Shown: positions 25,290 through 32,714 of the stretch, one piece after another
Layout: every line of letters begins with the position of its first letter
Position numbering within the stretch: position 1 is the stretch's first letter
Assembly (NCBI RefSeq): GCF_000787835.1
Contig: NZ_BBPP01000023.1
Coordinates: forward strand, 88,185 to 127,187
DNA from: Streptacidiphilus melanogenes
Lineage (GTDB): Bacteria > Actinomycetota > Actinomycetes > Streptomycetales > Streptomycetaceae
DNA length: 39,003 nucleotides
Direction of reading: 5' to 3'
Program-made: the position numbers and the translations under genes
The notes under the pieces: model-generated
The model's database searches: none
What the model was told of the DNA's origin: nothing
The model's input: only the letters and a program-made list of their open reading frames with translations

Positions 25290-26135
25290 ATGGAATCTGA
25301 AGACATGTCCGGAGAGCCCGAGCCCCAAGCCGAGTCCCAGCCCGACTCCCAGGTCGAGCCCCAGGCCGCACCGGAGTCCGCACCGGAGTACGCGCCGGAA
25401 TCCACGTCGGCCCGGGCGCGTCGAAAGAGCGTCACCATCACCGTGGCGGCCGCGGTCTGGCTGGCCGTCGCCGGTACCTCGGCGGCGATCGCCGCCAACA
25501 CGGGCGGCGGTGGCACCGCCGTGGCCGAGGCACGGACCAGTGCGTCCCCGTCGGCCTCCCCGTCCGCACCCGCGGTGCTGCCGAGCATCGCCGCGACGCC
25601 GACGCCGAGCCCGAGCTCGACCGTCAAGGGTTACGTCAACGGCTCGACCCACAGCGGCGACCTGCGCTTCTTCCTGCTGCCGGTCCCGGACGACGCCGAG
25701 GCCTACGGCGACCCGGACGGCACCACGGAGAGCGTCTCGGACATCGCGAAGACGATGAGCAACTCGTCCACGAGCAAGCAGATCCTGAAGCAGTACGGCT
25801 GCACCGGCGGCGCCTCGCGCAGCTACCGGACCAATGACGGGCTCTACACCGTCGACGTCAACCTGATCCACTTCGACAGTGCCGGGCACGCCGCCGACTG
25901 GGTCAGCGGCCTGTCCTACGCCCATGGCGACAGCTTCGACATCTCCGGTGTCTCGAACGCCAAGGGGCAGGCGATCAACCCGTCCGACAGCGGCGGGACG
26001 GGAACGCTGATCGGCGTCTCCCACGTCGGCGACGTGGAGTACGAGATCGTCGTCTCCGGCACCGGCACCCTGGACCACTCCCTGCTCACACCGCTGATGA
26101 AGCGGCAGGAGCAGCGCCTCGGATCCGGCCACTGA
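25290..26135 (+). CDS. Exported single-pass membrane protein, paralogue 1 of 4
   Basis: 281 aa; not a family I can name. An acidic Pro/Glu/Gln/Ser-rich cytoplasmic tail (1-40) ends in RARRK. One helix spans about 48-70, a Ser/Pro/Thr/Ala linker runs to about 115, and an extracytoplasmic domain follows. The domain opens with GDLRFFLLPVPDDAEAYG, continues through a beta-rich middle (TVDVNLIHFDSAGHAADWV) and ends GDVEYEIVVSGTG, then DHSLLTPLMKRQEQRL. The same three blocks, in the same order, occur in the next three proteins. It contains one Cys (QYGCTGG). ATG 25290 is favoured over an ATG at 25215 because GGAGGA lies 4-9 nt upstream. Function unknown; it probably acts with its paralogues at the cell surface. 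Confidence 0.88.
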   Translation: MESEDMSGEPEPQAESQPDSQVEPQAAPESAPEYAPESTSARARRKSVTITVAAAVWLAVAGTSAAIAANTGGGGTAVAEARTSASPSASPSAPAVLPSIAATPTPSPSSTVKGYVNGSTHSGDLRFFLLPVPDDAEAYGDPDGTTESVSDIAKTMSNSSTSKQILKQYGCTGGASRSYRTNDGLYTVDVNLIHFDSAGHAADWVSGLSYAHGDSFDISGVSNAKGQAINPSDSGGTGTLIGVSHVGDVEYEIVVSGTGTLDHSLLTPLMKRQEQRLGSGH

Positions 26136-26155
26136 CAAGGGACTTGGAGGAAATG

Positions 26156-26980
26156 ATGAGTACCCCTGCAGACTCCGGGTCCCAGTCGGCGGCCGAACTG
26201 ACGGCCGAACCGACGGCTGAGCCCGCACCCGAGCTTGCGCCTGCGCCCGAGGCGGCTTCGGTGCCGCGGCCGCGCGGACGGACCGCGCGGATCATGGCTG
26301 CCGCGGTCGCGGTGGGCGTGCTGGGCGGAGCCGGCACCGGCTACGCGGTGCAGGCCTCTCGCAAGCCCACCCCGCTGCCGCCGCTCGCCGTCGCACAGCC
26401 GCAGTACCCCTCGGCGCACCGCAGCGCTCCAGCGCTGACCGCCGCCGAGGACGACATGGCGAAGACCGACGGCGACCTCACCAAGCTCCTGGTGCCGGTC
26501 CCCTCCGGCAGCAAGCCGTGGCCCGCACCGCTGGGCGAGAACGGCTGGCTCCCGTTCAAGGACTTCATCGAGGGCTTCGAGAAGCCGGACTCGGCGATGC
26601 GCTACCAGCTTCCTCTGGGGATCCGCCGCATCGCGGTGGCCACGTGGTTGCAGGGCTCCGACAGCTACGAGATCCAGCTGGTCCAGTACCGGCACGACCA
26701 GGGTGAGTCGGCCACGTCGTTCATCAACGGCCAGGCCGAGTACGCCTCGGACGACGTCGGCGGCCTGAACAACTACACCCAGATCCCCGACAGCTCGATC
26801 ACCGGCGGTGTCTACGTCGGGCCGAAGCAGCATCAGGACCCGGACGGTGGCAGCTACTACGAGGGCGTCGGCCTGGCCGTCCACGGAGACATCGCGGTGC
26901 TGATCTACGTCGACTCGTCGCACCGGGTCGACGGGAAGCCGCTGATGAACCTGTTGCAGAGTCAGTTGGAGCGACTGTGA
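26156..26980 (+). CDS. Exported single-pass membrane protein, paralogue 2 of 4
   Basis: 274 aa. Cytoplasmic Ala/Glu/Pro tail (1-40) ends in PRPRGRTAR; one helix at about 46-65; then an exported domain. Block 1 is GDLTKLLVPVPSGSKPW with GENGWLPFKDFIEGF, which aligns well with paralogue 4 (GRKGWVAMSDYAGLF). Block 2 is a beta segment, SYEIQLVQYRHDQGESATSF. Block 3 is GDIAVLIYVDSSHRVDGK, ending LLQSQLERL. No Cys and no catalytic motif. The gene starts 20 bp after paralogue 1; ATG 26156 is 5 nt from GGAGG, a better spacing than ATG 26153. Its stop overlaps the start of paralogue 3 (GTGA). Confidence 0.87.
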   Translation: MSTPADSGSQSAAELTAEPTAEPAPELAPAPEAASVPRPRGRTARIMAAAVAVGVLGGAGTGYAVQASRKPTPLPPLAVAQPQYPSAHRSAPALTAAEDDMAKTDGDLTKLLVPVPSGSKPWPAPLGENGWLPFKDFIEGFEKPDSAMRYQLPLGIRRIAVATWLQGSDSYEIQLVQYRHDQGESATSFINGQAEYASDDVGGLNNYTQIPDSSITGGVYVGPKQHQDPDGGSYYEGVGLAVHGDIAVLIYVDSSHRVDGKPLMNLLQSQLERL

Positions 26981-27813
26981 CCGACCAGCTTCCCCCGCCC
27001 GAGCAGCCGGTGCAGGCCGTGCAGCCGCTGCAGCCCGAGCAGCCCGAGCAGCCGGTGCAGGCCCAGCAACCGCTGCCGCCGGTCGAGACTCCCCGGGCGC
27101 CCGTGCGCCGGCGGATGGCCCTCGGGGCGCTCGGAGTCGCCTTCGTCCTTTCCGCCGTCGGCGTCGGAACCGGCGTCGGGCTGGCGCTGCGCTCGCCCGC
27201 CCCCGCGAAGCCGGTGGCGACCGCCCAGACGGCGAAGCCGACCTTCGGCGCGCACTCGGACGGCGACCACTACGGCTCGCTCAGCGACCTGCTGCTGCCG
27301 ATGCCGGCCGGCTACGCCTACGGCCCCGACGACATGGGCCTCGGGGACAACAGTGTGCTCACCCGTGACCAGTACGAGGCGATGTTCGCCAAGCAGTTCT
27401 CGTTCCTGAGCGCCGCCGAGCGGACCCAGCTGAAGAGCCGGCTCGACCTCGACCACGTTCTCGGGTACGGGCTGCGCGTCTACACCGACAACAGCTCGCA
27501 GGTCGTGGAGATGTCGCTGCTCCAGGAGAACCAGCACTCCGCCAAGGGCTGGGCGGAGGTCGGCAAGTACCTCGCCGACTCGACCGACGTCTTCCGTGCC
27601 GGACCGAGCATCCCGGGCCACCCGGAGGCCCACTGCTACCTCCTTCCCGCGCCGCCGGGCGACCGCCTCGACTCGATGCACTGCGACGCGGCCGTGGGCG
27701 ACCTGCTCGTCGCCGTCGACGCCTACGGCGCCGCCCCGCTCGACCAGCAGGGCGCCGCCGCGCTTCTGGAAGCCCAACTCAACCGACTCGCGATCCCGGG
27801 GGCCCAGATATGA
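26977..27813 (+). CDS. Exported single-pass membrane protein, paralogue 3 of 4
   Basis: 278 aa. The cytoplasmic tail is a Pro/Gln/Val repeat (PEQPVQAVQPLQPEQPEQP) ending in RAPVRRR; one helix spans about 47-70. The exported domain begins GSLSDLLLPMPAGYAYG (block 1), has VVEMSLLQENQHSAKGW as block 2 and ends GDLLVAVDAYGAAPLDQQ, then LLEAQLNRL (block 3). Two Cys (AHCYLL and MHCDAA) lie 18 residues apart and could form a disulfide outside the cell. GTG 26977 overlaps the previous stop and its own stop overlaps the next start, so translation is coupled on both sides. Function unknown. Confidence 0.87.
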   Translation: MTDQLPPPEQPVQAVQPLQPEQPEQPVQAQQPLPPVETPRAPVRRRMALGALGVAFVLSAVGVGTGVGLALRSPAPAKPVATAQTAKPTFGAHSDGDHYGSLSDLLLPMPAGYAYGPDDMGLGDNSVLTRDQYEAMFAKQFSFLSAAERTQLKSRLDLDHVLGYGLRVYTDNSSQVVEMSLLQENQHSAKGWAEVGKYLADSTDVFRAGPSIPGHPEAHCYLLPAPPGDRLDSMHCDAAVGDLLVAVDAYGAAPLDQQGAAALLEAQLNRLAIPGAQI

Positions 27814-29057
27814 CGACTTCCGACGAGCCCAAGCCGGCCCCCGCCGCGGCCGCACCGGCCGAACCCGCCGCGGCCGCACCGGCCAAGCCCGCATCGGCTG
27901 CCGAGCCGGCCGAGTCGTCTGCATCGCCCGCGCCCGGCGAAGCCGCGACCGAGGCGGAACCCGCCAAGCTCGCTTCGTCCGTGTCGTCCCGGGCGGCTGA
28001 GGCCGAGACGGTGGCGGAGGCCGCCGGGCCGGATGCCCCCGAGCCTGATGCCGGCGAGCCCGCCGATTCGCCCGCGCCTGCAGAGGCTGGGGCGGAGCCT
28101 GCCGAGACCACCGCGTCGGCCGAGCCGGCATCGTCCGCGCCTGCGCCCTCCTCCGCGCCTGCGCCCGATCCTGCCGAGCTCGCATCGCCCACCGGGCCTG
28201 ACGCGCTCGCATCGTCCGCGCCGCCGGAGGAAGCTGAGGCCGGGACTGTGGCGGGGCCCGCCGAGCCCGCCGCATCGCCCGAACCCGCCGGGTCGGCGCG
28301 CACGCGCCGACCCGCGTTGCGGACCGTGCTGCGATGGACCACCGCCACGGTCCTCTGCCTCGGGCTCGGGACCGGCACCGCCTTCGCGGTGATGGCCCCG
28401 AAGCGGACCGACGTCCCCGGACTGGCGACGCCGGCGGACGGCCGGTTCACGTACCCCGCGCTGCGGTTGCCGGAGCTGCCGCCGGGGGCCTCGGGTCCGG
28501 GTGAGAGCGGGCTCTCGCAGGGCGCGCCGGGCGGGACGGTGCCGCACGCGATCGGCGACGTCCGGCTGCTGCTGCTCCCGTCCGCGGTCGGCGCCAAGCC
28601 CGACCCGGCGCTGCCGGGGCGGAAGGGCTGGGTCGCGATGTCCGACTACGCGGGTCTGTTCACCTCGTCGGGCTCGGTGGCGCAACTGCTGCGGGAGAAC
28701 GGCGCGCGCCAGGTCGCGGCCACCGGCTGGACCATGCCGGACGGGACGCACGTCGCCGTCTACCTGGTGCCGTTCCGGAGCGGGACGGCGGCCACGGCCC
28801 TGACCCAGGCGGAGGCCATCGACATGCACCTGGCGCAGGCGCCCGACCAGGGCTTCAGCACGCCCGACGACTCCCCGGGGGCGGGGAACGGGCAGAACCT
28901 GACGGCGGCTGCGAAGGGCGGCAAGCCCGCCGTGCGGGCGTCCGTGTTCTCCGCCGACGAGATCGCGGGGCTGCTGGTGGTGACCAACCCGAAGGCGGTC
29001 AACCGGGTCGACTTCGAGCAGGCCCTGACGTTGCAGACCGAGCTGCTCGGCGGCTGA
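27810..29057 (+). CDS. Exported single-pass membrane protein, paralogue 4 of 4, with a very long disordered tail
   Basis: 415 aa. The first 165 residues are almost only Ala, Pro, Glu, Ser and Asp, acidic and surely disordered; a 24 bp direct repeat (27840-27863 and 27864-27887) suggests growth by slippage. TRRPALR then leads into one helix (about 172-194). The exported part carries block 1 (GDVRLLLLPSAVGAKPDPALPGRKGW), block 2 (HVAVYLVPFRSGTAATALTQ) and block 3 (DEIAGLLVVTNPKAVNRV with LTLQTELLGG). It aligns best with paralogue 2. No Cys outside the helix. ATGA overlap with paralogue 3; a strong nested hairpin lies right after the stop. The tail could tether cytoplasmic partners or span a crowded surface. 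Confidence 0.87.
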   Translation: MTTSDEPKPAPAAAAPAEPAAAAPAKPASAAEPAESSASPAPGEAATEAEPAKLASSVSSRAAEAETVAEAAGPDAPEPDAGEPADSPAPAEAGAEPAETTASAEPASSAPAPSSAPAPDPAELASPTGPDALASSAPPEEAEAGTVAGPAEPAASPEPAGSARTRRPALRTVLRWTTATVLCLGLGTGTAFAVMAPKRTDVPGLATPADGRFTYPALRLPELPPGASGPGESGLSQGAPGGTVPHAIGDVRLLLLPSAVGAKPDPALPGRKGWVAMSDYAGLFTSSGSVAQLLRENGARQVAATGWTMPDGTHVAVYLVPFRSGTAATALTQAEAIDMHLAQAPDQGFSTPDDSPGAGNGQNLTAAAKGGKPAVRASVFSADEIAGLLVVTNPKAVNRVDFEQALTLQTELLGG

Positions 29058-29066
29058 ACCCTGATA

Positions 29067-29104
29067 CCGCGGGGGTGCGTCCCCTAGGGGAAACACCCCC
29101 GCGG
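29067..29104 (+). terminator. Nested-palindrome terminator closing the four-paralogue operon
   Basis: CCGCGGGGGTG (29067-29077) pairs perfectly with CACCCCCGCGG (29094-29104). The loop itself contains the perfect palindrome TCCCCTAGGGGA (29080-29091) with the same centre. Ten bases separate it from the stop codon. Confidence 0.75.
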
Positions 29105-29179: not shown

Positions 29180-30151
29180 GTGGCTGTCATCACTACGGAT
29201 CACCTCACCAAGAGGTTCCCCCGGGTCACCGCTCTGGACCACCTCAGTGTCGAGGTGCAGCCCGGAGTGGTCGGTCTGGTCGGGGCGAACGGCGCGGGTA
29301 AGTCCACTCTCATCAAGATCCTGCTGGGGCTGGCCCCAGCCACCGAGGGCACCGCCCGCGTGCTCGGGCTCGACGTCGCCACCGAGGGCGGCGCGATCCG
29401 CGAGCGGGTGGGCTACATGCCCGAACACGACTGTCTGCCGCCGGACGTGTCCGCGACGGAGTTCGTGGTGCACATGGCCCGGATGTCGGGCCTGCCCGCC
29501 ACGGCCGCGCGCGAGCGGACCGCCGACATCCTGCGGCACGTCGGCCTGTACGAGGAGCGCTACCGCCCGATCGGCACGTACTCGACGGGCATGAAGCAGC
29601 GCGTCAAGCTCGCCCAGGCGCTCGTGCACGATCCGCAGCTGGTGCTGCTGGACGAGCCGACCAACGGGCTCGACCCGGTCGGCCGGGACGACATGCTGGA
29701 GCTGATCCGGCGCGTCCACCGCGAGTTCGGCATCTCCGTGCTGGTCACCTCGCACCTGCTCGGGGAGCTGGAGCGCACCTGCGACCACGTCGTCGTGATC
29801 GACGGCGGCAAGCTGCTGCGCAGCTCCTCCACCGCCGACCTGACCGCCGCCACCTCACTGCTGGCGGTCGAGGTGACGGAGCGCCAGGACGATCCGGCCT
29901 TCGACGTGAACGCCGCACTGCGGGCGCGGCTGACCGAGGCCGGGCTGACGGTCGGCGCCGACTCCGGGCACGTGCTGCTGGTGGAGCTGGACGGGGACGA
30001 GGTCTACGACGTGATCCGGGACGCGGTCGCCGAGCTGGGCGTCGGTCTGGTCCGGCTGGAGCAGCGTCGTCACCACATCTCCGAGGTGTTCGCCGCGGGC
30101 GCCCACGGCGTGGACGGCGCCGACAAGGCCGAGGAGGTCGCTCATGTCTGA
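29180..30151 (+). CDS. ABC transporter ATP-binding protein (module 1)
   Basis: 323 aa cytoplasmic ATPase of the ABC-2/drug-export type. Walker A is GANGAGKST at about 38-46, Q-loop region GYMPEHDCLPPDV, signature YSTGMKQRVKLAQALVHDP, Walker B LVLLDEPTNGLD and switch His in VTSHLLGELE. A C-terminal extension of about 110 residues after the ATPase core ends in LRTTSEVF-like HHISEVFAAG, typical of export ATPases. GTG 29180 is leaderless. Its last 8 bp overlap the permease start at 30144. Together with the following three genes it makes a two-ATPase, two-permease exporter. Substrate unknown. Confidence 0.94.
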   Translation: MAVITTDHLTKRFPRVTALDHLSVEVQPGVVGLVGANGAGKSTLIKILLGLAPATEGTARVLGLDVATEGGAIRERVGYMPEHDCLPPDVSATEFVVHMARMSGLPATAARERTADILRHVGLYEERYRPIGTYSTGMKQRVKLAQALVHDPQLVLLDEPTNGLDPVGRDDMLELIRRVHREFGISVLVTSHLLGELERTCDHVVVIDGGKLLRSSSTADLTAATSLLAVEVTERQDDPAFDVNAALRARLTEAGLTVGADSGHVLLVELDGDEVYDVIRDAVAELGVGLVRLEQRRHHISEVFAAGAHGVDGADKAEEVAHV

Positions 30152-31037
30152 GACGCACGCGCCCGAGGGGCGCCTCGACGTCATCCACGACATCGGCTAC
30201 CGCCACTACGAGGGCCCCCGGCTGGGCGTCGGCTACGCCACCCGCTCGCTCTACACCTCGAGCCTGCGCGGCGCCTTCGGCCTGGGCCGGTCCGGCAAGT
30301 CCAAGATCCTGCCGATGGCCATGACCGCGATCATGGCGGTGCCCGCGCTGATCATCGTAGCCGTCTCGATCTACGTGAAGATGGGCAAGCTGCCCGTCGA
30401 CTACCCGCAGTACCTGACCAACCTGCAGTTCGTCACCGCGGTCTTCACCGCCGCCCAGGCGCCGGTGCTGCTCTCGCGCGACCTGCGGTTCATGACGGTC
30501 CCGCTCTACTTCTCCCGCCCGCTGCGCTCCAGCGACTACGTGCGGGCCAAGTACGCGGCGATGGTCTCCGCCGTCTTCATCCTCACCGTGCTGCCGATGC
30601 TGATCATGTGGATTGGCTCGATGCTGGGGTCGATGGACTTCGGCTACAACACCAAGCACTTCGCCTTCGGCGTCGTCGCCGCCGCCTTCTACTCGCTCGT
30701 CTACGCCGGCCTCGGCCTGCTGATCGCCTCGCTGACGCCCCGCCGCGGCTTCGGCGTGGCGGCGATCATCGCGCTGTTCATGGTCTCGGCGGGCGTCTCC
30801 GGCGCGCTGCGCGAGGTCATGCACGTGACCGGCCACCAGGCCGCGTCGTTCTGGGTGGCCATGCTGAACCCGGGCTTCCTGATCGACTCCACCGTCTCGT
30901 GGATGTTCGACCTGCCGCTGCGGGGCAACGTCGCACAGATGCCCACCACGCTCGGCGGCGTCGTCTTCCTCGCCGAGATCGCGGTGCTGGCCGCCGGCAC
31001 CTTCGCCCTGCTCGTCCGTCGCTACCGGAAGATCTGA
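30144..31037 (+). CDS. ABC-2 type permease (module 1)
   Basis: 297 aa membrane subunit. After a cytoplasmic N-terminus (HDIGYRHYEGPRLGVGYATR), about six helices follow, including AMTAIMAVPALIIVAVSIYV, VSAVFILTVLPMLIMWIG and GVVAAAFYSLVYAGLGLLIA. The loop DLRFMTVPLYFSRPLRSSDYVRAKY is characteristic of this permease group. It ends in a short basic tail (RRYRKI). ATG 30144 overlaps the ATPase gene by 8 bp. The next ATPase starts 11 bp after its stop, with GAGGAGG as ribosome site. Confidence 0.93.
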   Translation: MSETHAPEGRLDVIHDIGYRHYEGPRLGVGYATRSLYTSSLRGAFGLGRSGKSKILPMAMTAIMAVPALIIVAVSIYVKMGKLPVDYPQYLTNLQFVTAVFTAAQAPVLLSRDLRFMTVPLYFSRPLRSSDYVRAKYAAMVSAVFILTVLPMLIMWIGSMLGSMDFGYNTKHFAFGVVAAAFYSLVYAGLGLLIASLTPRRGFGVAAIIALFMVSAGVSGALREVMHVTGHQAASFWVAMLNPGFLIDSTVSWMFDLPLRGNVAQMPTTLGGVVFLAEIAVLAAGTFALLVRRYRKI

Positions 31038-31048
31038 GGAGGCAGCAC

Positions 31049-31969
31049 ATGACCACCATCAGCATCGACCGGGTCTCCCGCTGGTTCGGCAACGTCGTCG
31101 CGGTCAACGACGTCTCGATGACGATCGAGCCCGGCGTCACCGGCCTGCTGGGGCCGAACGGTGCCGGCAAGTCCACGCTGATCCACATGATGAGCGGCTT
31201 CCTGCCGCCCTCCTCCGGTGCGGTGACCCTGGACGGCACGCCGATCTGGAAGAACCAGCAGGCCTACAAGCAGATCGGGCTCGTGCCCGAGCGCGAGGCC
31301 ATGTACGACTTCCTCACCGGCTGGGACTTCGTCCTCGCCAACGCCGAGCTGCACGGCCTGCCCGATCCGGGCGCCGCGGCCAAGCGGGCGCTCGCCACGG
31401 TGGAGATGGAGTACGCGCAGGAGCGCCAGGTCTCCACGTACAGCAAGGGCATGAAGCAGCGCGTGAAGATGGCCTCGGCCCTCGTCCACGACCCGGCCGT
31501 GCTGCTGCTGGACGAGCCGTTCAACGGCATGGACCCGCGCCAGCGGATGCAGCTGATGGAGCTGCTGCGCCGGTTCGGCGCCGAGGGGCGCACGGTCCTG
31601 TTCTCCTCCCACATCCTGGAGGAGGTCGAGCAGCTCGCCCGCCACATCGAGGTGATCGTGGCGGGCCGCCACGCCGCCTCCGGCGACTACCGCAAGATCC
31701 GCCGCCTGATGACGGACCGCCCGCACCGCTACACGGTCCGCTCCAGCGACGACCGCGCGCTCGCCGCGGCGCTGATCGCCGACGCGTCCACGGCCGGCAT
31801 CGAGCTGGATCTGAAGGAGCAGCAGCTGCAGATCCAGGCGGTCGACTTCTACCGGTTCACCGAGCTGGTGCCGCGCGTCGCCAAGGAGGCAGGCATCCGC
31901 CTGCTGACCGTCTCCCCGGCCGACGAGTCGTTGGAGAGCGTCTTCTCCTACCTCGTCGCCGCCAAGTAG
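31049..31969 (+). CDS. ABC transporter ATP-binding protein (module 2)
   Basis: 306 aa. Walker A is GPNGAGKST, Q-loop region GLVPEREAMYDFLTG, signature YSKGMKQRVKMASALVHDP, Walker B VLLLDEPFNGMDP and switch SSHILEEVEQLA. The signature shares MKQRVK and ALVHDP with module 1, suggesting duplication of an ATPase gene. The C-terminal extension ends VSPADESLESVFSYLV. ATG 31049 follows GAGGAGG (31035-31041); the open frame begins upstream at 30608 but overlaps the permease. It pairs with the last permease of the operon. Confidence 0.94.
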   Translation: MTTISIDRVSRWFGNVVAVNDVSMTIEPGVTGLLGPNGAGKSTLIHMMSGFLPPSSGAVTLDGTPIWKNQQAYKQIGLVPEREAMYDFLTGWDFVLANAELHGLPDPGAAAKRALATVEMEYAQERQVSTYSKGMKQRVKMASALVHDPAVLLLDEPFNGMDPRQRMQLMELLRRFGAEGRTVLFSSHILEEVEQLARHIEVIVAGRHAASGDYRKIRRLMTDRPHRYTVRSSDDRALAAALIADASTAGIELDLKEQQLQIQAVDFYRFTELVPRVAKEAGIRLLTVSPADESLESVFSYLVAAK

Positions 31970-31997
31970 CCACGCTAGGGAAGGCCAAGACCCCATC

Positions 31998-32714
31998 ATG
32001 AACGTCACTGTCGCCCGGCTGACGGCGCGCGGCCTGCTCGGCCGCCGCCGAGGCCTGCTGCTGCTGGCGCTGCCGGTCCTCCTGCTGGCGCTCTCCGCGC
32101 TGATCCGCGGCATCGCGGGCCAGGACGAGAGCACGGCCGCCAACATCCTCGGCGGCCTCGCCCTCGGCACCATGGTCCCGCTGGTCGGGCTCGTCGCCGG
32201 TACCGGGGCCATCGGCCCCGAGATCGACGACGGCTCGATCATCTACCTGCTGTCCAAGCCCCAGCCGCGGTGGAAGATCATCACCTCGAAGCTCGTCGTC
32301 GCGATCGGCTGCTCGATCGTGTTCGCCGCGCTGCCGACGTACTTCGCCGGGCTGATCCTCTTCGGCACCTTCGAGAACCTCACGCTCGGCTTCACCATCG
32401 CCGCGCTGATCGCCGGCATCGCCTACAGCGCGCTCTTCCTGCTGCTGGGCGTGGTCTCCCGCCATGCCGTGGTGTGGGGCCTGATGTACGCCCTGCTGTG
32501 GGAGACGGTCGTCGGCCAGTACGTGCCGGGCGCGCAGACACTGAGCGTGCACCAGTGGGCGCTGTCGATCGGGGAGAAGATCGCCTCCCCGGGTGTGATC
32601 AGTTCCTCGGTCCACCTGCCGACGGCCGTGCCGCTGCTGATCGTCGCCACCCTGGGTGGCGCGTGGCTCGCGTCGTCACGGCTGACGCGGCTCACCCTCG
32701 CGGGAGAGGAGTGA
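31998..32714 (+). CDS. ABC-2 type permease (module 2)
   Basis: 238 aa with about six helices. A basic N-terminus (TARGLLGRRRG) precedes the first (LLLLALPVLLLALSALI). The segment TGAIGPEIDDGSIIYLLSKPQPRWKIITSKL is the conserved cytoplasmic loop of the NosY/ABC-2 permease group. Other helices include LVVAIGCSIVFAALPTYFAG and IAYSALFLLLGVVSRHAVV. It begins 28 bp after module 2 ATPase and ends the operon; a terminator-like repeat lies 18 bp past the stop. Confidence 0.93.
   Translation: MNVTVARLTARGLLGRRRGLLLLALPVLLLALSALIRGIAGQDESTAANILGGLALGTMVPLVGLVAGTGAIGPEIDDGSIIYLLSKPQPRWKIITSKLVVAIGCSIVFAALPTYFAGLILFGTFENLTLGFTIAALIAGIAYSALFLLLGVVSRHAVVWGLMYALLWETVVGQYVPGAQTLSVHQWALSIGEKIASPGVISSSVHLPTAVPLLIVATLGGAWLASSRLTRLTLAGEE

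Follow-up and report, generated by a model that had tools for sequence, protein, structure and literature searches.

The extracytoplasmic domains closest to those described here belong to a fold whose best-known members are sensor or accessory parts. One is the extracellular sensor domain of the kinase PknH (PknH_C; Pfam ID PF14032), which also occurs in some proteins without a kinase. Another is TiME (soluble domain PDB 7cu8/7cu9), which we take to be the protein TtfA (Rv0383c). According to two papers, TtfA is found among mycolate producers (PMC6593404), it forms a complex with MmpL3 for which its own N terminus is required, and trehalose monomycolate transport depends on it (PMC6593404, PMC10171966). 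The DUF7373 lipoproteins (PF24088/PF24092) appear to be the nearest family in sequence and are also found in arrays. The likeness to the LpqN/Apa/MTC28/PsbP/Mog1 group is weaker and may be a generic fold resemblance.

The locus analyzed here lies in a 39,003-nucleotide stretch of the Streptacidiphilus melanogenes genome (8.77 Mb, 107 contigs), referred to below as the window. It carries a real, old module of up to four genes, g1 to g4, with a known fold and with no name for the operon or the family in the searches made. The features are listed in Table 1.

Table 1. Features of the g1-g4 module and its downstream neighbors, in window coordinates
Feature	Coordinates	Strand	Description
g1	25290..26135	+	type II single-pass membrane protein; exported domain 25650-26132; falls in clade g1 of the gene tree
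g2	26156..26980 (ATG at 26153 is an alternative start)	+	type II single-pass membrane protein; exported domain 26462-26977
g2 transmembrane helix	26276..26356	+	helix in the AlphaFold2 model; G-x3-G-x3-G by column counts
g3	26977..27813	+	single-pass membrane protein; exported domain 27265-27810; two conserved cysteines
g4	27810..29057	+	single-pass membrane protein; exported domain 28545-29051
Hairpin	29067..29104	+	19-nt arms, 89% complementary, without a T-run; between g4 and the ABC genes; probable terminator
Double ABC exporter	29180..32714	+	ATPase 29180-30151, permease 30144-31037, ATPase ~31046-31969, permease 31998-32714; judged to be context, outside the g1-g4 unit

The four genes proposed in the first-pass annotation are real, as are the overlaps of the g2 stop with the g3 start (GTGA) and of the g3 stop with the g4 start (ATGA); g1 and g2 do not overlap in the window and are separated by 20 bases. 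The shared plan proposed for the four proteins is also present. In each, a low-complexity N-terminal tail (about 42, 36, 43, and 163 residues in g1 to g4, respectively) ends in a basic stretch and is followed by a single hydrophobic helix and then by an exported domain of about 160 to 185 residues.

Comparison of the family alignments with hhalign matches all six pairs of g1-g4 at probabilities of 96 to 99%. With the exported domains alone, the E values are 2e-14 (g1-g2), 6e-14 (g1-g3), 1.6e-10 (g1-g4), 4.5e-13 (g2-g3), 3.3e-19 (g2-g4), and 1.3e-5 (g3-g4, the weakest pair, at a probability of 80%), against 0.04 to 0.92 for 30 column-shuffled controls. The alignments comprise 49 of 80 window-or-locus rows plus 16 database proteins for g2, 53 of 81 rows for g3, and 49 of 75 for g4; one g2 (L079, with an in-frame stop in the frame chosen) was left out of the profile. 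In the window's own genome, the g4 profile retrieves g2 (5e-12) and g1 (3e-6) and does not reach g3 at an E value of 0.001. These comparisons indicate that g1-g4 are paralogues derived from one ancestral gene, so that the likeness in three ordered blocks, noticed at first by eye, is borne out as homology. The literal motifs are looser than claimed: g3 has GSL and not GDL/GDV, the window g4 has LLLPSA and not LLxPxP and, in the final block, ADEI instead of GD, and only g2 and g3 show the LL-x-QL-x-RL helix clearly.

In a tree built from 163 columns of 117 exported domains, labeled by best profile match and with four g2 fragments of less than 100 residues dropped (L133, L136), g1, g2, g3, and g4 (n = 21, 29, 30, and 30) form four error-free groups with support values of 0.92, 0.75, 0.98, and 0.99, respectively. 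Each group holds members of families f1 and f3, both of the same order, and the four copies therefore predate the split of these families. Seven domains from other secreted proteins (L139 to L142) fall outside all four groups. Secreted proteins with the exported domain twice in tandem are encoded in three genomes of the same genus (L139 4012-5109 in G013, L140 4207-5313 in G009, and L141 4380-5282 in G003); they have a cysteine after a signal-like stretch, and their genes lie far from the operon.

A pattern scan of 84,980 species, one genome per species, gave 186 confirmed g2 relatives, of which the best 80 were kept. Profile searches find the complete, ordered g2-g3-g4 trio in 74 of these best 80 of 186 loci; the remaining six (L011, L014, L015, L045, L068, and L080) contain g2-g3 and reach a contig end before g4. 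A four-base start/stop overlap is available for g2-g3 in 76 of the 80 loci and for g3-g4 in 68 of 74, with start codons picked towards overlap, a choice that favors it; in L134 and L137, g1 and g2 overlap by 4 bases as well. The g1 gene is present in 8 of the same best 80 of 186 loci (6 from Streptacidiphilus, 1 from Actinacidiphila, and 1 from Streptomyces) and in 14 of 20 relative loci of greater length. In a second survey of 61 genomes, including the window's own, 37 show g2 and 36 of the 37 also show g4. The sole exception, G036, retains g1 and g2, with g3-g4 reduced to a remnant. This short segment between g2 and the ABC genes (L132 9892-10588) resembles the beginning of g3 and the last part of g4, as an internal deletion could leave. 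The expectation that the genes travel together thus holds up, with one counter-example among 37 genomes, and the set stays together and keeps its order across soil bacteria that produce antibiotics.

The other 24 of the 61 genomes, among them one from the same genus and 12 others from the same family, show no g2, and the unit is therefore dispensable. None of the 24 carries g4; the weak matches to the g4 profile there, in G006, G020, and G034, are to a two-domain secreted protein or to a lone g1 type. Lone g1-type genes are found at L143 966-1439 (G020) and L144 3896-4363 (G034), in genomes where no g2 or g4 was found. Additional copies occur as well: L012 (5394-12368) contains all four genes twice in tandem, L070 (7110-11424) has a full trio and then g2-g3 as far as the contig end, and L037 carries an additional g2-g4 pair without g3 ahead of a full trio.

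The module is found in three neighborhoods and therefore behaves as a unit. In the first, seen in the window's genus and three further genera, it lies upstream of a double ABC exporter. In the second, it adjoins genes that, from their sequences, we take to be DsrE-like and FABP-like, with a presumably YgfZ-like gene beyond; these are present in 70, 69, and 68 of the best 80 of 186 loci, respectively, and only six Streptacidiphilus loci of this set (L009 to L014) lack both the DsrE-like and the FABP-like gene. In the third, the module is convergent with a presumably gatB-like gene, in six f3 loci with all four genes and in one f1 genome (G014) with g2-g4. A sigma-E-like promoter pattern was found in none of 71 upstream regions.

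A link to the double ABC exporter, suggested in the first-pass annotation, is weak and does not generalize. A related permease adjoins the module in 17 of the 37 g2 genomes (the window's own included), from four genera, with the module directly upstream of the ABC genes, as would suit accessory subunits of that exporter. In the other 20, it is on another contig, where the actual distance is not proven, lies far away (263 kb in G021, for instance), or was not found (G014 and G022). The co-occurrence expected of an ABC accessory subunit is not seen: 14 genomes of the 61-genome survey have the permease without g2, and the exporter is present in only 4 of the best 80 of 186 loci, with 2 further loci of the same genus cut by contig ends. 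In addition, a hairpin separates the module from the ABC genes. This hairpin is the proposed terminator. A similar one (18-nt arms) occupies the corresponding position in three of four relatives tried (L009, L010, and L012), and the fourth (L013) has different inverted repeats; the window hairpin lacks a T-run and was not called by the terminator scan. That g1-g4 are accessory subunits of the adjacent exporter is very improbable; an ABC accessory role in general is unlikely, less firmly so for the window's lineage.

AlphaFold2 models of two of the four subunits, g2 and g3 (mean pLDDT 85.9 and 83.4, respectively), have the PknH extracellular domain as their best structural match, over 154 to 155 residues, and show the same fold as PknH_C and TtfA/TiME; a Foldseek search with the g2 model gave nothing under an E value of 0.001. 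The two models match the same folds and not unrelated ones, and the exported domains of g2 and g3 are accordingly predicted to adopt the PknH-sensor/TiME/LpqN/PsbP-like fold; those of g1 and g4 probably share it, by homology. The statement that no named system has this arrangement applies, within the searches made, to the operon and the family; the fold itself was already known. Searches of Pfam, NCBIfam, and Rfam give nothing at the cut-off for g1-g4, and searches of PDB by sequence give nothing for g2 and one chance-level match for g4 (E value of 0.2). Far below the cut-off, g1 matches Trypan_PARP (in the tail) and the SCO2400 and CU044_5270 families, and g3 matches an NCBIfam anti-sigma model (E value of 0.25; 11.3 bits versus a cut-off of 100); none of these was accepted. 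Judged by sequence, g1-g4 lie outside the named families. The literature searched contains no description of this operon that could be found, which does not prove that none exists. No Streptomyces coelicolor locus tag could be assigned to it: for numbers from SCO4165 to SCO4181, guessed on grounds of synteny, the literature found deals with other proteins (SCO4174 of 83 amino acids, the XRE/DUF397 pair SCO4176/77, and the FabG-like SCO4168) or just lists the tags.

No Pfam match to PknH_C is found for g1-g4, the best of 65 g2 relatives reaching an E value of 0.21; the window's own genome gives none, but neither do the control genomes. When compared by hhalign with 28 PknH_C domains, g1 (0.17), g3 (0.25), and g4 (0.12) have chance-level E values and g2 a weak one (0.0076). 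Against 16 DUF7373 domains, the values are 1.6e-4 for g2 and 1.7e-4 for g3 (probability of about 50%; best shuffled controls, 0.076 and 0.08) and about 0.007 for g1 and g4. On these values DUF7373 comes nearest by sequence, although this is not proven. Pfam gives no DUF7373 match for g1-g4; below the curated cut-off, one of 53 g3 relatives matches at 2.8e-4 and one of 65 g2 relatives at 0.0075, and matches above it come from only 5 of 197 genomes, each a member of family f6. PknH_C and DUF7373 match each other poorly (E value of 0.029). One genome has six DUF7373 matches within about 9 kb (G156:C26:58971-67650), and another has four PknH_C matches in a row (G228:C162:63224-66795); the fold group tends towards tandem paralogue arrays.

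What is shared with PknH is an exported domain, with the same predicted fold in g2 and g3; Pfam finds no kinase domain in g1-g4. A kinase sensor domain as the best structural match, together with the weak anti-sigma match of g3, would fit a signaling module in which exported sensor domains relay a signal by way of the helix to the tails inside the cell, like PknH minus the kinase. However, the tails are low in complexity and not conserved, no kinase or HTH domain is matched in Pfam or NCBIfam, and an unsystematic look noticed no regulator common to the three neighborhoods, all of which makes such signaling improbable. Compared with TtfA/TiME of mycolate producers, the module has four paralogues in other lineages, which to our knowledge are without mycolates.

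The g2 helix has glycine at three positions four apart in 100%, 100%, and 98% of 80 aligned sequences, with alanine (96%) four positions ahead of the first of them, and this G-x3-G-x3-G pattern is a helix-packing motif. The g3 and g4 helices contain conserved small residues, and the two cysteines of the g3 exported domain are invariant in 53 aligned sequences. In g2 and g4, few parts are as conserved as the juxtamembrane linker; in g4, RW at the membrane entry and PGL after the helix are both invariant. Residues are thus conserved on both sides of the membrane boundary, and signal-peptide cleavage is therefore unlikely. The g2 linker is modeled with low confidence (block means of 48 to 69), as expected if it docks on a partner. 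The glycine motif, the conserved linkers, and the fixed gene set favor a heteromer.

From the computed homology, g2/g3 fold, gene coupling, co-inheritance, and topology pattern, we give about an even chance that g1-g4 are subunits of one membrane-anchored extracytoplasmic complex with an accessory or sensing role in the envelope; the complex and its stoichiometry are inferred, and the role is suggested by analogy to mycobacterial proteins with this fold. In each subunit, a low-complexity tail in the cytoplasm would lead through a single helix and a juxtamembrane linker to an exported domain with this fold. The helices, above all the g2 glycine zipper, and the linkers would pack the subunits together, and the exported domains would make up a platform without catalytic activity to which a ligand or partner in the envelope binds, the whole acting in cell-envelope maintenance of mycelial actinobacteria. 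The shared fold says nothing on the ligand. Counting against a single complex are the g1-g2 genome with a g3-g4 remnant, the two lone g1 types, the extra g2-g4 pair, the rarity of g1 in the best loci, the g2-less genomes, the failure of the g4 profile to reach g3, and the Foldseek result.

Adjacency may also stem from old tandem duplication only. The four proteins could be independent monomeric ligand receptors or envelope sensors, kept together for co-expression with no shared complex, as the tandem arrays of the fold group elsewhere, the genomes with g1 alone or g1-g2 only, and the extra g2-g4 pair would suggest. Against this, the order is fixed and stops and starts overlap across two families and three neighborhoods, the whole set is duplicated in L012 and L070, and the helix-packing motif is near-invariant; we regard independent receptors as rather doubtful. 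A bolder form of the single-complex reading, which we consider unlikely, is a hetero-oligomeric envelope machine of mycolate-free mycelial actinobacteria, with four diverged TtfA/PknH-type subunits around a glycine-zipper core, as a counterpart of the mycobacterial MmpL3-TtfA accessory system that would handle another cargo or act with another partner.

The structural and linkage ideas of the first-pass annotation hold up, and its ABC link does not generalize. For an old operon of Streptomyces and related bacteria that lacked annotation, the analysis supplies a fold, a family history, and an assembly open to testing. In bacteria that, as far as we know, do not make mycolic acids, the mycobacterial PknH-sensor/TiME fold has been multiplied into a fixed set of up to four genes, so that a general role of this fold in envelope biology can be tested in laboratory strains that are harmless.
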